A stretch of 64,000 nucleotides of DNA from Radicibacter daui (GTDB lineage: Bacteria > Pseudomonadota > Alphaproteobacteria > Radicibacterales > Radicibacteraceae), in NCBI GenBank assembly GCA_030657355.1, contig CP131056.1:1632501-1696500 (forward strand), read 5' to 3'. Numbering within the stretch: the first letter of the stretch is position 1; every line of letters starts with the position of its first letter. Below are positions 44,905 through 54,388 of this stretch, piece by piece. A model generated the notes under the pieces. It was not told the DNA's origin, did no database searches, and saw only the letters and a list, made by a program, of their open reading frames with translations. Made by a program: the position numbers and the translations under genes.

Positions 44905-47430
44905 TCAGTAATCCCCGTGATCGGGCAGCAGCACCTCACGTTTGCCCACATGGTTGGCGCGGCTCACCACGCCTTCCTTTTCCATGCGCTCGATCAGGCG
45001 CGCCGCCCGGTTGTAGCCGATCTGCAGGTGGCGCTGGATAAAGCTGGTGGAGGCCTTGCGCTCGCGGGCGACGAGGGCGATGGCCTGATCGTAGAGATCG
45101 TCCCCGCTTTCGCCATTGCCGCCGACATCATCCTCAAGGCCGAAGGCACCGCCTTCATCCGGGTCCTCGGTGATGTTGTCGATGTAAAGCGGCTCGCCCT
45201 GCGCCTTCAGGTGATTGACCGACTTCTCGACCTCGTCATCCGACACGAAGGCGCCGTGAACGCGGGTAAGGCGTCCGCCGGAGGCCATATAAAGCATGTC
45301 GCCCTGGCCCAGCAGCTGTTCGGCGCCCTGTTCGCCCAGGATGGTGCGGCTGTCGATCTTGGAGGTCACTGCATAGCTGATACGGGTCGGGAAGTTGGCC
45401 TTGATCGTACCGGTGATGACGTCGACCGACGGGCGCTGCGTTGCCATGATGAGATGGATGCCGGCCGCACGCGCCATCTGGGCGAGACGCTGGATACAGC
45501 CTTCGATCTCCTTGCCTGCCACCAGCATGAGGTCGGCCATCTCGTCGACCACCACCACGATATAGGGCAGTTCGGTCATGTCGAAGGGCTGCTCCTCGAA
45601 CACCGGCTTGCCGGTATCGGGGTCGAAGCCCGTCTGCACGCGCCGGCGCAGCAGCTCACCACGTTCCACCGCCTCGCGGATGCGAGCGTTGTAACCATCG
45701 ATATTGCGCACGCCGAGCGTGGACATGGAGCGATAACGGTCCTCCATCTCGCGGACCGCCCATTTGAGCGCGACCACGGCCTTGCCCGGTTCCGTCACCA
45801 CCGGGGTCAGCAGATGGGGGATGCCGTTATAGACGCTGAGCTCCAGCATCTTGGGGTCGATCATGATGAAACGGCAGCGATCCGGCGGCAGGCGGAAGAG
45901 GATCGACAGGATCATGCCGTTGACGCCGACCGACTTGCCCGAACCGGTGGTACCGGCCACCAGCAGATGGGGCATTTTGGCGAGGTCGGCGATGATGGGC
46001 GCGCCGCTGATATCCTTGCCGAGCGCCATGGCCAGCTTGGCCTTGGTGCCCTGAAACTCCGTCGCCTCGAACAGTTCGCGCAGATAGACCATCTCGCGCT
46101 TGCGGTTCGGCATTTCGATGCCGATGACATTGCGGCCGGGGACGACGGCAACGCGCACGGAAACAGCCGACATCGAGCGGGCGATATCGTCGGAAAGGCC
46201 GATCACGCGGCTCGACTTGGTACCGGGAGCCGGCTCCAGTTCGAACAGGGTAACGACCGGGCCCGGCCGCACCTCGACGATGCTGCCCTTGACGCCGAAA
46301 TCGCCAAGCACCCCTTCCAGATCGCCGGCAGCCTGACGCAGCAGGCCCGGATCCTGGGTAGAGGTGCGCTCGCCCGGCTTGGGGCTTGCCAGCAGGTCGA
46401 GCGGCGGCAGCTCATAGGCGCCGGGCTCATCTTCTATATAGACGCGCTCGGTCAGCGGCAGGGTGGGGGAGCGGTCGGCCCGCTCGTTCACGCGAACCGG
46501 CGGGGCGCTGGTTTCACGGGGGGCTGCACTCGGCGGCGGGGCGAAAAGGCCCGCCACTTCGCCTTCAGCCTCTTCATCGTCGCTCTCCGGTTCGGCGGCG
46601 GCGGCAAAGCCGGGGGCAATCCGGGGTTCGGCACGAACGGCGGCCGGCTTTTCCTTGCGGCTGCGTTTTTCCATCGGTGCGCGCAGGCCGACGCTCTCGG
46701 CCCGCAGCGGCGGGGCGGCGTCATAGGCTTCTTCTTCCTGTGCGCCGTCCTGGCCGAGGTTCGGCATGATGGCACGCAGACCCGCGCCGGCCCGGCTTGC
46801 CGTATCGCCTACCAGCGACCCGGCCGCCCGCATCGAGCCCGAGCCAAGCCGCAGGGCACGTACGATACCGCTCCAGCTGGCCCCGGTGGCTCCGGCAAGC
46901 AGGGTGGCGAAGATGACCAGCAGCAGGAACATGCCCGGCAGGTGCCAGGCGTTGGGCAGGGTGGAGGCGAGCTTGCCATTGACGAGCGCACCGATCACGC
47001 CGCCCGCGCTGCTGATCCGCAAGCCTGCGGGGGCACCGAACGCGCCGACGAAGGCGGAGAGCACCAGCAGGGCAAGCAGGGCGAGGATGAGGCGCAGCAC
47101 GGGATATTTGAGCTGCCGGTGCGCCGCGATCATGCCGCCCCAGGCCACGATGACCACCGGCAGCAGATAGGCGGAAAAGCCCAGCACCTGCATGAGAATG
47201 TCGGCAAGGGTGGCGCCGAGGCCACCCAGCCAGTTGCGGTAGGTAGCACTGGCGCTCGCCACATTGGCCGAGGCGTCATCCGGGTGATAGCTGATGAGGG
47301 CACCCAGAAGGGCCGCCCCCAGCGCGACCACAACCAGCCCACCGACCTCGACCGCCCGCCGCATCATCAGTGCGGCAAACCAGGGCGGCACCAGCGACGC
47401 CATCCTCGAACGCGAAAACCCCGACTTCAT
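44905..47430 (-). CDS. ftsK: DNA translocase FtsK
   Basis: Septal DNA pump that clears the chromosome terminus and activates dimer resolution. 841 residues. Seen: four hydrophobic helices in the first 190 residues, a Pro/Glu-rich linker, then the motor with Walker [49 protein letters not shown] (Walker B) and [16 protein letters not shown], and a C-terminal winged-helix gamma domain ([20 protein letters not shown]). The start overlaps the aminotransferase stop by 4 bases. Complete. Confidence 0.97.
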
Positions 47431-49043: not shown

Positions 49044-49382
49044 ATGCCGTACGTCGTGACTGACCAGTGCATCAAGTGCAAGTACACCGACTGCGTCGAA
49101 GTCTGCCCCGTGGATTGCTTCTACGAGGGTGAGGTGATGCTCGTGATCCATCCGGACGAGTGCATCGACTGCGGCGTGTGCGAGCCGGAGTGCCCGCCGG
49201 AAGCCATCGTGCCGGATACGGACGACAAGGCCGAAGCCTGGCTCGAGATGAACCGCACCTACGCCGAGCAGTGGCCGAACATCACCCGCCAGATCGACCC
49301 GATGGAAGGCGCCGACAGCTTCAAGGGTGTCGACGGCAAGTACGACAAGTACTTCACCGAAGCGCCGGGCCAGGGCTCGTAA
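49044..49382 (+). CDS. fdxA: Seven-iron ferredoxin FdxA
   Basis: 112 residues after GGAGGG; electron carrier with one 3Fe-4S and one 4Fe-4S cluster. Seen: Cys9, Cys12, Cys17 and Cys21 in [20 protein letters not shown] and Cys40, Cys43, Cys46 and Cys50 in [18 protein letters not shown]. This Cys pattern and the 40-residue C-terminal extension ([15 protein letters not shown]) define the FdxA type. It sits upstream of carD in many Alphaproteobacteria, as here. Confidence 0.95.
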
Positions 49383-49937: not shown

Positions 49938-50438
49938 ATGTCTCAGCAGTTTGATTTCCAGCCCGGCGATCTCGTTGTTTATCCGGCCCACGGCGTGGGC
50001 ATCGTGGAGGGCATCGAGACCCACAATATCGCCGACCAGGAGGTCTCGCTTTACACCATCTCGTTCGAGAAGCAGCGCATGCGCCTCAAGGTGCCGCTGC
50101 ACAAGGTCAAGGCCAGTGGCCTGCGCCGCCTGAGCTCGAAGGAGCGCATCAAGGATGCGCTGACCACGCTCCAGGGCCGCTCGCGTATCAAGCGCATGAT
50201 GTGGAGCCGCCGTGCGCAGGAATATGAAGCCAAGATCAATTCCGGCGACCCGGTGGCGATCGCGGAAGTCGTGCGCGACCTGCACCGTGCCGAAGACCAG
50301 CCGGAGCAGAGCTACTCCGAGCGCATCATCTACCAGCAGGCGCTGGAGCGTCTTTCCCGCGAGCTGGCCGCCGTCGAGCGTATCGACGACGAAAAGGCGA
50401 CGGAAAAACTAGAGGCAGTGCTGCGCAAGGCTGCGTGA
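49938..50438 (+). CDS. carD: CarD-family transcription regulator
   Basis: 166 residues from the ATG at 49938. CarD binds RNA polymerase beta and stabilises open complexes at many promoters. Seen: N-terminal Tudor-like RID (FQPGDLVVYPAHGVGIVEGI, LYTISFEKQRMRLKVPLHK), then a helical DNA-binding domain with MMWSRRAQEYEAKINSG and VVRDLHRAEDQPEQSYSERI. Upstream in-frame starts are not family-like. Located between fdxA and the degenerate phosphatase gene, and a long leader is predicted. Confidence 0.95.
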   Translation: MSQQFDFQPGDLVVYPAHGVGIVEGIETHNIADQEVSLYTISFEKQRMRLKVPLHKVKASGLRRLSSKERIKDALTTLQGRSRIKRMMWSRRAQEYEAKINSGDPVAIAEVVRDLHRAEDQPEQSYSERIIYQQALERLSRELAAVERIDDEKATEKLEAVLRKAA

Positions 50439-50515
50439 CACTATATGATGGGCGGCGTGGTCGGGGTAACCCAACCACGCCGTTTTTGTCTTCAGCCTCG
50501 AGAGCGTCTTGCCGA

Positions 50516-51379
50516 ATGGTGCCTGAGCATCAGACCGCTGACACCGCACCTGCCGCTGGCCTGGATCCCAGCAAATTCGCCAAACTCGGGCGTTTCGCGC
50601 GACTGTGGGCGGTTGGCTCCATCCATGGCGATGTCGGGCGCCTGCAGAAGATCCACGACCACATCGCCCGCGACTTTCGGGTCGGGGACCGAATCATCTA
50701 TCTCGGCAATATGACCGGCCGGGGAGCACATCCCCGCGAAACGGTGGATGAGCTCCTGGGTTTTCGCCTCAATGTCATGAGCCTGCCGAGCGTGCTGGCC
50801 AGCGATATCGCCTATTTGCGCGGCGCGCAGGAAGAAATGCTGCAAAAGCTGTTGCAGCTCCAGTTCGCACCCGATCCGCCCTCCGTCCTCAGCTGGATGC
50901 TTGCCCACGGGCTGGAGCCGACGATCCGCGCCTATGGCGGTTCGGTCGAGGATGGTATCGCCAGCGCCCGCAGCGGCCCGCAGGCCATCACCCGCTGGAC
51001 GCAGGCGCTGCGCAATGCCATCCGCGGCGCGCGCGGGCATAATGACCTCTTCTCGGCAGTGCGCCGGGCGGCGGTGGGTGAGGGGCTGGGGCCTCATCCC
51101 GAAACCGGACGGCCGATCAATTTTCTCTTCGTGCACGCCAACATCAACCGCGCCCACAGCCTTGCCGACCAGGCCGATGCCTTCTGGTGGGGCGGTGCCC
51201 GTTTTGACGAGCAGGATGGCCCGTTCGAGGGCTGGGATCTCGTCGTGCGGGGCTTTTCGCCGACCGGGCAGGGGCCGCGTTTTGGCCTGCATGTGGCAAC
51301 CATCGACGCGCCCGGGCCTGAAATCGCCTGTGCTCTTCTGTCGTCGGAAGGTCGCCTGCTTGATCAGGTCGTGACCTGA
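50516..51379 (+). CDS. Degenerate PPP-family phosphatase-like (calcineurin-fold) protein, probable pseudophosphatase
   Basis: 287 residues. The fold of serine/threonine phosphatases is recognisable, but the metal-binding positions are substituted. Motif I, normally GDxHG, reads AVGSIHGD; motif II, normally GDxVDRG, reads LGNMTGRG; motif III, normally GNHE, reads RGAQEEM; motif IV, the terminal VHAG, reads VHANI. Two metal-ligand aspartates and the GNHE Asn/His are therefore gone, while the surrounding spacing is preserved (LRGAQEEMLQKLLQ). Such proteins can act as scaffolds or signalling partners. It is directly downstream of carD, starting 78 bases after it, likely in the same transcript. 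An upstream in-frame start at 50435 exists. Confidence 0.72.
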   Translation: MVPEHQTADTAPAAGLDPSKFAKLGRFARLWAVGSIHGDVGRLQKIHDHIARDFRVGDRIIYLGNMTGRGAHPRETVDELLGFRLNVMSLPSVLASDIAYLRGAQEEMLQKLLQLQFAPDPPSVLSWMLAHGLEPTIRAYGGSVEDGIASARSGPQAITRWTQALRNAIRGARGHNDLFSAVRRAAVGEGLGPHPETGRPINFLFVHANINRAHSLADQADAFWWGGARFDEQDGPFEGWDLVVRGFSPTGQGPRFGLHVATIDAPGPEIACALLSSEGRLLDQVVT

Positions 51380-51386
51380 TCTTTTG
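51362..51386 (+). terminator. Terminator overlapping the end of the phosphatase-like gene
   Basis: GATCAGGTC and GACCTGATC (51362-51381) form a palindrome of 9-bp arms that includes the stop codon, and TTTTGT follows. The hairpin reads as an 8-bp stem with a CGTG loop. Confidence 0.7.
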
Positions 51387-51391
51387 TATAG

Positions 51392-51611: not shown

Positions 51612-52505
51612 ATGAGTCATGTTGACGATCCACAGACCCAGAAAGCCAATCTCGGTTTCATTCGCGCCTCCATGCGTGAGCCGCTACTGACGCGCGACCG
51701 CGAGTTCGATCTTGCCCGCCGCTGGCGCGAGGGTGGCGATGAACCCGCCCTGCACGAGCTGGTTCGCAGCTATACCCGGCTTGTGGTGTCGATGGCGGGA
51801 CGCTTTCGCAGCTATGGCCTTCCCGCCGGTGATCTGGTGCAGGAGGGTAATGTCGGCCTGATGCAGGCGGCCAGCCGCTTCGAGCCGGAGCGCGATGTGC
51901 GCTTTTCAACTTATGCCAGCTGGTGGATCCGCTCGGCCATGCAGGATTACATCCTGCGGAACTGGTCTATCGTGCGCACCGGCACCACCGCGGCCCAGAA
52001 GTCACTGTTCTTCAACCTGCGCCGGTTGCGCGCCCGCATCAGTGCGGAAACCGCCGGGCAGGAGCTGGGAGATGCCGGCCGCCGGCGCATCGCCGCCGAA
52101 CTGCAGGTGCCGCTTTCGGATGTCGAGAGCATGGAGCAGCGGCTCTCCGCGACGGACCATTCGCTGAATGCGCTGGTCGGCGATGATGGCGACAGCCAGT
52201 GGCAGGATTTCCTGACGGCGGCTGACCCTTCACCTGAACAAAACGCCATTGCTTCCCTCGACGGCCATCAGCGTACCCACTGGCTGCATCAGGCCATGGC
52301 CGAGCTGAACGAGCGCGAACGGCACATTATCCGCGAGCGGCGGCTGCGCGAGGAAGGGGTGACGCTGGAGGAGCTTGGCCGCGCGCTGGGCGTCAGCAAG
52401 GAGCGGGTGCGCCAGCTGGAGCATCGCGCAATGGACAAGCTGCGCGTGCTCATCTCCGCCCATATCGAGCGGCCGGTCGACCTGCTGCCGGAAGGTGAAG
52501 CGTGA
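51612..52505 (+). CDS. rpoH: RNA polymerase sigma-32 factor RpoH
   Basis: 297 residues from the ATG at 51612 behind GGGAGAGG. Directs RNA polymerase to heat-shock and related stress promoters. Seen: sigma region 2 LVRSYTRLVVSMAGRFRSYG, DLVQEGNVGLMQAASRFEPE and FSTYASWWIRSAMQDYILRN, the RpoH-box-like AAQKSLFFNLRRLRA, and region 4 with LGVSKERVRQLEHRAMDKLR. Alphaproteobacteria usually carry more than one RpoH. Three REP-like units follow. Confidence 0.94.
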   Translation: MSHVDDPQTQKANLGFIRASMREPLLTRDREFDLARRWREGGDEPALHELVRSYTRLVVSMAGRFRSYGLPAGDLVQEGNVGLMQAASRFEPERDVRFSTYASWWIRSAMQDYILRNWSIVRTGTTAAQKSLFFNLRRLRARISAETAGQELGDAGRRRIAAELQVPLSDVESMEQRLSATDHSLNALVGDDGDSQWQDFLTAADPSPEQNAIASLDGHQRTHWLHQAMAELNERERHIIRERRLREEGVTLEELGRALGVSKERVRQLEHRAMDKLRVLISAHIERPVDLLPEGEA

Positions 52506-52744: not shown

Positions 52745-54268
52745 TCAGCTCTTTTCTTCGCGGATGATCTTCAACTGCTGGCCGGCGGCGATGGGCGCAT
52801 TGGTCGGCAGGCCGTTCAGCACGGCGAAGGTTTCCAGCTTCAGGTCCGGCACATCCATCTTTTCGGCAAGCGAGGTCATGGTGTCGCCGGCCCTGGCCGT
52901 TACCAGCCGGATGCGCAGCGGGCCGATGCTCGACTTTTCCTGGGTGGTCAGGGCGCGGAAGCTGTAGGTGGTGCGCTTCAGCCCCTCGGCTTCCGAGGCG
53001 GTGTTGCCCGGCACGGTGATGAACATGAAGCGGTAGATGCTCTTGCTGTCAAAGCGGATGGCAACGGCCCGGATATCGGCGGCTTTGCCGTTGACGGCAC
53101 CGCGCACATAACCGGTAGCTGCCGTCAGCCCGTTGATGTCGATGGTCTCGACCTGCTGCAGGTCACTGCCCTTGGCCCAGACCTCCTGCAGATAGCGTGT
53201 CATCGACCCGCCGGGTGCCTTGCTCAGGCGGTCGCTGTCAAAAGCGATGATGGAGCCCTTGGCGTTGGTCGCCACCACCTTGGAAGCGCTGTTGGAGATA
53301 TTGAAGCCGGCCGGCACCTCGAAACGGAAACCGAGCGGCACATGGATGAAGGCATGCCCGCGCACATAACCCTGATCGGGGCCATCGCCATAAAGCAGCC
53401 CGTCCACCATCTTCATATAGCTGTCGCGCCCACGGGCAAGGCCGTTGCCTTTGGTTTGCTGGGCAAGGCTGTCCGCCCGGGTCACTCGGTCGCCGGTATT
53501 GGGGTGGGTCGCGAAAAAGTCCTGTGTATTGTCGCGGGCGGACTGGCCGGCGAGCTTGGCATCGAGATCTTCATTGCGCTGGAGCTGACGCAGGAAGTTG
53601 GACATCGCCTCCGGATCGTAGCCGGTACGGCCGAGGTAACGGATACCCAGCTGGTCGGCCTGATATTCCTGATCGCGTGAATAGCCGAGCAGGGCCAGTT
53701 GCGCACCCTGACCCAGCACGCCCGCCAGCTGGTCGCTGCCTGTCAGAACGGCGGCGGCGGTGACGCCCAGATTGGCGACAACGCTCTGGCTGTAGCGCTC
53801 GGCGGTATGGCGGGCGGCAATGTGGCCCACTTCGTGCCCCAGCACGCCGGCAACCTCCGCCTCGTCATTGGCGAGCGCCAGCAGGCCGCGGGTGATGTAG
53901 ACATAGCCGCCCGGCAGGGCAAAGGCGTTGATCACCGGCGTGTCGAGCACGGTGAAGGTATAATGAAGGTCGGGCTTGTCACCGAAGGAGGCGACCCGTT
54001 CGCCCACCTCGTCCACCCAGCCGGTTACTTTCTTGTCGCCATAGGCGCCGCCGAATTCCTTGAGGATTTTCGGGTGTTCGTCGTCACCGGTCTGCTGCTC
54101 CTGCGACGGGCTCATGAAGGCGGTGAACTGGCGCTCGCCGGTTGCGGGGTTGGTCTGGCAGCCGGCGAGCAGCATCAAGGCTGCGCCGGCGGCGGCAAGG
54201 CCGGGCAAGCGCGCGAAGGGCGGCGAAACACGGCGGGGCGGGGCGAAAGCCGGAAGGGTGAGGCTCAT
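52745..54268 (-). CDS. M48-family metallopeptidase lipoprotein with LysM-like C-terminus
   Basis: 507 residues from the ATG at 54268 behind AAGAGGAAAG; a longer frame exists but starts in unrelated sequence. Seen: signal peptide and lipobox LMLLAGC with Cys37, then the peptidase domain with the zinc motif VAGVLGHEVGHIAARHTAER and a following QEYQADQLGIRYL Glu, like the BepA/YfgC class of outer-membrane quality-control proteases. The C-terminal 60 residues form a LysM-like repeat (GDTMTSLAEKMDVP, GQQLKII). Probably periplasmic and tethered to the outer membrane. Confidence 0.92.
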   Translation of the reverse strand: MSLTLPAFAPPRRVSPPFARLPGLAAAGAALMLLAGCQTNPATGERQFTAFMSPSQEQQTGDDEHPKILKEFGGAYGDKKVTGWVDEVGERVASFGDKPDLHYTFTVLDTPVINAFALPGGYVYITRGLLALANDEAEVAGVLGHEVGHIAARHTAERYSQSVVANLGVTAAAVLTGSDQLAGVLGQGAQLALLGYSRDQEYQADQLGIRYLGRTGYDPEAMSNFLRQLQRNEDLDAKLAGQSARDNTQDFFATHPNTGDRVTRADSLAQQTKGNGLARGRDSYMKMVDGLLYGDGPDQGYVRGHAFIHVPLGFRFEVPAGFNISNSASKVVATNAKGSIIAFDSDRLSKAPGGSMTRYLQEVWAKGSDLQQVETIDINGLTAATGYVRGAVNGKAADIRAVAIRFDSKSIYRFMFITVPGNTASEAEGLKRTTYSFRALTTQEKSSIGPLRIRLVTARAGDTMTSLAEKMDVPDLKLETFAVLNGLPTNAPIAAGQQLKIIREEKS

Positions 54269-54388
54269 CTTTCCTCTTGTTCTCTTTCGGGGGCGTCTCT
54301 GGCGGATGTCCGTCTCGGGAAGGCGCCGGGTGCCAGTTGGGCGTGCGGCATCCTGTCTTGTCAACGCCGTGAGCGGGTGCCGGGTTCG

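Follow-up and report, generated by a model that had tools for sequence, protein, structure and literature searches.

A carD-linked alphaproteobacterial family of PPP-type phosphatases predicted to be catalytically dead

The gene that stands directly behind carD in the DNA analyzed here (the window, a stretch of 64,000 nucleotides from Radicibacter daui) belongs to an unnamed alphaproteobacterial family of PPP-type phosphatases that appear to be catalytically dead, are maintained by purifying selection beside carD, and may modulate CarD or RNA polymerase by binding; for this reading as a whole we estimate a probability of about 0.7. Its components are not equally firm. To judge from the residues that have been replaced, PPP catalysis by the family protein is almost certainly absent, and action through binding is probable. 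A tentative proposal, argued from the position of the gene, is that the target is CarD, RNA polymerase or the neighboring sigma factor. The finding offers a concrete, testable candidate beside an RNA-polymerase regulator. A search of open-access papers found no report of a bacterial PPP pseudophosphatase.

The gene and its surroundings

The pseudophosphatase gene occupies 50516..51379 on the forward strand, from an ATG at 50516 to a stop codon ending at 51379, and encodes a protein of 287 aa with a predicted PPP fold. The GTG at 50519 could be an alternative start; a start near 50516 fits, because the 31 close homologues of the first search are mostly 264-283 residues long. The gene begins 77 bases after the stop codon of carD (TGA, 50436-50438) and ends 232 bases ahead of rpoH. 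The carD/cdnL gene (49938..50438, forward strand) encodes 166 aa ending in LRKAA, with the Pfam domains CarD_TRCF_RID and CarD_C, and rpoH (51612..52505, forward strand) encodes the RNA polymerase sigma-32 factor (NCBIfam NF005693). The conserved neighborhood also includes a ferredoxin gene, fdx, upstream of carD (49047..49382, forward strand), and a recurrent downstream neighbor, a convergent gene for an M48-type metalloprotease (52745..54364, reverse strand) recognized by reading from its HEVGH motif. Further upstream, the window has an ftsK-like gene at 44905-47430. Behind rpoH, the intergenic segment 52508-52720 contains GC-rich palindromic repeats, GGGGAAGGTGCGGCGAAGCCGCGG...GGGGGTAATGA, apparently in two or more copies.

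The five PPP motifs of the window protein read VGSIHGD, LGNMTGRG, LRGAQEEM, FVHANI and VRGFS, and the positions of the ligands are occupied by S35, H37, N65, G68, A104, Q105, H207 and F247. The open reading frame, coordinates, motifs and neighbors described in the earlier note were all recovered from the sequence.

Relationship to PPP phosphatases

The earlier note had proposed a PPP-phosphatase-like fold, and this was borne out by profile-profile comparison, by PHROG matches, and by an AF2 model searched with Foldseek. In hhalign, the pseudophosphatase family aligned with active alphaproteobacterial PPPs over 227 columns with a probability of 99.8% and an E value of 1.1e-27. The NinI-like Ser/Thr phosphatase family of PHROGs was matched by 24 of 32 members, the window protein among them at E 3.9e-9. 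The AF2 model of the window protein (pLDDT 86, pTM 0.86) found lambda Ser/Thr phosphatase 1g5b as its best PDB match (E 5.8e-9, probability 1.00, TM 0.50/0.62), and a phage Ser/Thr phosphatase ranked first among the viral models too; the model of another homologue, L005, had somewhat lower confidence (pLDDT 80.6). The window protein had no match in Pfam or NCBIfam up to E 1, and Pfam PF00149 (Metallophos) gave weak matches in 3 of 32 members, the best at E 0.031, the window protein staying below the cut-off. As far as profiles and predicted structure can tell, the window protein is derived from PPP phosphatases by descent and has a PPP-type fold, the likeness not being due to chance.

The bacterial and phage PPP Ser/Thr phosphatases (lambda NinI and PrpA/PrpB-like enzymes; PF00149) resemble the family in predicted fold, in the order and spacing of the motifs, and in a conserved framework of Gly and Glu residues. 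The family differs from them in that four motifs (I, II, III and V) have their catalytic ligands replaced, in a longer helical region after motif III, and in the motifs RWT, FWW and VRG[FY]D. The best PDB chains by sequence profile (E about 3e-5) are Rhizobiales-like phosphatase 2 (5vjv) and a putative diadenosine tetraphosphatase (2qjc); both have low similarity and are described as enzymes, and neither has a known link to carD.

Replacement of the catalytic residues

The catalytic columns were counted in 113 distinct aligned family members and in 9 active relatives, all 9 of which have D35, D65, D68, N104, H105, H207 and H247. Asp at position 35 occurs in 0/112 members, which have A, S, P, C or T instead. 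In motif II, D65 is present in 1/113 and replaced by N in 106/113, and D68 is present in none of the 113 and replaced by G in 112. In motif III, N104 survives in 5/113 and H105 in 2/113, with Q at the latter position in 101/113. His at position 247 of motif V is found in 3/113 members, 87 having Y or F. Loss is less complete at H207 of motif IV (H in 49/113, N or S in 52/113) and at H37, which is present in 84/112 members and replaced in 28/112. The active-motif relatives obtained in the same search (L033-L041) carry GDIHG or GDVHG, GDYxDRG, GNHE or GNHD, VHAG (CHAG in one), and VHGH(T/S).

The window protein follows the family pattern. It departs from GDxHG in motif I, where S replaces D, from GDxxDRG in motif II, where N and G replace both D residues, and from GNHE in motif III, where A and Q replace N and H. 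Motif V, VRGFS as opposed to VHGH(T/S) in the active relatives, has lost its GH, with F in place of H; motif IV keeps HA, and its His is retained in the window copy (VHAN). The alignment thus confirmed the substituted columns that the earlier note had asked to see checked against the PPP family. That note had placed the loss of ligands in three motifs, which holds for motifs I, II and III; the loss extends to four of the five, the one in motif V having been missed.

Many further columns are close to invariant. G64, G103, E106 and G246 are fixed in 113/113 members, and W224 (112), G174 (112), H175 (111), E107 (110), W225 (109) and W161 with T162 (107) are nearly so; D264 occurs in 105/113, R245 in 101/113, and an Asp at position 248 in 86/113. 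Judged by the alignment, N65, Q105 and R245 are conserved replacements and not random decay. Stretches specific to the family are conserved as well, namely QEEM..KLLQLQFAP, RWT..LR, GH, Q.D.FWW, VRG[FY]D and a GG-rich C-terminal strand.

For the 40 pairs of closest members, dN/dS lies between 0.035 and 0.35. Both the metal site and the phosphate site have been lost family-wide, the framework is near-fixed and dN/dS is low; selection therefore appears to act for a protein without PPP catalysis. The claim of a selective loss of catalysis, as opposed to decay, stands, since the same columns are replaced in more than 110 distinct homologues under purifying selection. Loss of the ligands is, on this sequence record, a family trait, and the decay of a single copy is ruled out by the family-wide substitutions together with dN/dS. 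Homologues with intact motifs in the same context had been named beforehand as the observation that would overturn the claim, and the 97 carD-linked loci contain none.

Distribution and association with carD

Among the 387 alphaproteobacterial genomes of the sample, 145 encode a member, so that about 37% of them carry a protein whose window copy escapes both Pfam and NCBIfam. Carriers were called at E <= 4.6e-56, and the next match appeared only at 1.6e-20, which leaves a clean gap. A phylum-level sample of 397 genomes, counted as a whole and not by class, gave 14 matches, every one of them alphaproteobacterial and none from another class, and a search of plasmids gave no match. Along the CarD tree, the presence or absence of the pseudophosphatase gene changes at least 17 times, as estimated from a short protein with a fast method.

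Linkage to carD is conserved. Of the 111 family loci that could be assessed, 97 have carD in the same orientation no more than 1.5 kb upstream, and two others (L097 and L047/G300) have it at about 1.5 kb, which brings the linkage to about 99/111, a count of related members and not of independent events. The second of these, L047 (G300:C24:144134-144928), has one TAG inside the matched stretch and an ORF of 256 codons that is still open. In three loci of family f38 (L018, L043 and L054), carD and the pseudophosphatase gene stand about 1.3-1.4 kb apart, with room for an inserted gene. Among the 113 family loci, the ferredoxin gene is upstream in at least 82, rpoH downstream in at least 42, and the M48 protease gene convergent downstream in at least 36, all three counts being minima from flanks that spanned 1.5-5 kb. 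In the earlier argument from position, which had invoked both carD and rpoH, linkage to the former is strong, and the latter carries less weight.

In about a dozen genomes from several lineages the gene persists away from carD, and no recurrent alternative neighbor was seen by reading these loci. In one such lineage (L084) it precedes an FtsK-like gene, again by reading only. Conversely, 35 carD loci from genomes that are not carriers largely keep the fdx-carD-(rpoH)-(M48) frame, from which the pseudophosphatase gene is simply missing; the family profile and the active-PPP profile find nothing within about 3 kb of them. An active phosphatase in the same context was thus sought both in the 97 carD-linked loci and near these 35, and was found in neither set.

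Transcription

The genes are not generally organized as an operon with carD, as terminators separate them in 52 of the 97 linked loci, the window included, compared with 2-15 in ten rounds of dinucleotide shuffles. In the window, the 77-base gap contains a strong intrinsic terminator on the forward strand (50452..50488), in which GGCGTGGT...ACCACGCC is followed by a T-tract (stem-loop GGCGTGGTCGGGGTAACCCAACCACGCC, then the T-tract). Because only about 28 bases separate this terminator from the start codon, transcripts of the pseudophosphatase gene probably arise either from read-through or at a promoter located within carD. A second terminator-like stem-loop with a T-run (51362..51391, forward strand) overlaps the pseudophosphatase stop codon. 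Intrinsic terminators are thus a common feature of the gap behind carD, yet both genes stay neighbors.

Possible functions

STYX, MTMR13 and the D2 domains of PTPRs, the eukaryotic pseudophosphatases to which the family may be compared, have Cys-based phosphatase folds and not PPP folds. The likeness lies in a phosphatase fold without catalysis, which the eukaryotic proteins retain for roles in binding, trapping or allostery (PMC10211241). In the family described here, the two-metal centre would be unable to form, with the consequence that dephosphorylation would not take place, and a partner would be bound through the retained scaffold and the family-specific conserved stretches. The most likely role would be that of a modulator of the CarD/RNA-polymerase system. 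CarD/CdnL is the usual neighbor of the protein and a partner candidate, not a homologue; in Caulobacter, CdnL binds RNA polymerase and is needed for normal rRNA transcription (PMC5324124). It may be conjectured, with perhaps a one-in-three chance of being correct, that wholesale replacement of its metal site turned a Ser/Thr phosphatase into a dedicated pseudophosphatase, which has CarD or RNA polymerase as its binding partner and in many Alphaproteobacteria tunes the transcription of housekeeping or stress genes.

The most serious competitor, only a little short of even odds, is a function unrelated to CarD, with an ancestral gene order passively kept in a stable region. The terminators in the intergenic gaps, the intact unlinked copies in several lineages, and the many genomes that have carD without the pseudophosphatase gene all speak for it, and the ferredoxin and M48 genes, for which no part in the function of CarD is evident, are comparably stable neighbors. 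The distances of CarD and of the pseudophosphatase correlate (Spearman 0.47), as would already follow from vertical inheritance. Against passive retention, however, the adjacency spans very divergent families, and the repeated presence changes on the CarD tree imply a gene content that is labile and a position that is mostly kept. In 953 tests, several CarD columns were associated with the presence of the gene at raw Fisher p values between 1e-5 and 1e-3; none was supported on independent pairs, of which only 5 were well supported, too few for significance.

A more specific form of action on CarD would be that of an adaptor or anti-adaptor for its turnover, perhaps one that senses a nucleotide in the dead pocket; by analogy with the Caulobacter system this has a slim chance, about one in eight. 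During starvation, ClpXP clears Caulobacter CdnL by recognition of a C-terminal Ala-Ala degron, a process that depends on ppGpp, and an adaptor has been suggested whose identity is unknown (PMC11034885). A term search of both CdnL papers (PMC5324124 and PMC11034885) found no mention of a phosphatase. In favor of such a role, the C-terminus of the window CarD is LRKAA, an AA end is shared by 79 of 97 linked CarD proteins, and one of the PPP relatives, the diadenosine tetraphosphatase chain 2qjc, bears the name of a nucleotide-cleaving enzyme. However, the AA end is equally common in the absence of the gene (28/35) and in its presence (76/94), so that the degron does not follow gene presence and nothing yet ties it to the pseudophosphatase.

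Modulation of CarD or RNA polymerase, the reading preferred here, also has to be set against two proposals that we consider improbable. A regulatory subunit or decoy for a catalytically active PPP phosphatase of its own cell, slightly less probable than a role in turnover, would correspond to a mode that is common among eukaryotic pseudophosphatases (PMC10211241), and the second contig of the window genome has a candidate, by profile, in a strong active-PPP match (C2:517561-518283). It is nevertheless unlikely that the protein needs an active PPP of the nearest type as an obligate partner, because 27 of 39 inspected carriers have no active-PPP profile match, or none other than the pseudoenzyme itself, in a set that is enriched for single-match genomes and in which more distant active PPPs may lie outside the reach of the profile. 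Least probable is a protein that has remained an enzyme but catalyzes a different chemistry, at a site that has migrated or binds one metal, even if new activities have been found in some other pseudoenzymes (PMC10211241). Nearly all members lack the Asp and Asn ligands and most of the His ligands, and even H207 and H37 are replaced in the numbers given above. On the other hand, H37, E106 and D264 are largely retained and the old motifs have acquired conserved polar residues (N65, Q105, R245 and D248); the retention of H37, E106 and sometimes H207 may allow weak metal binding or other chemistry.
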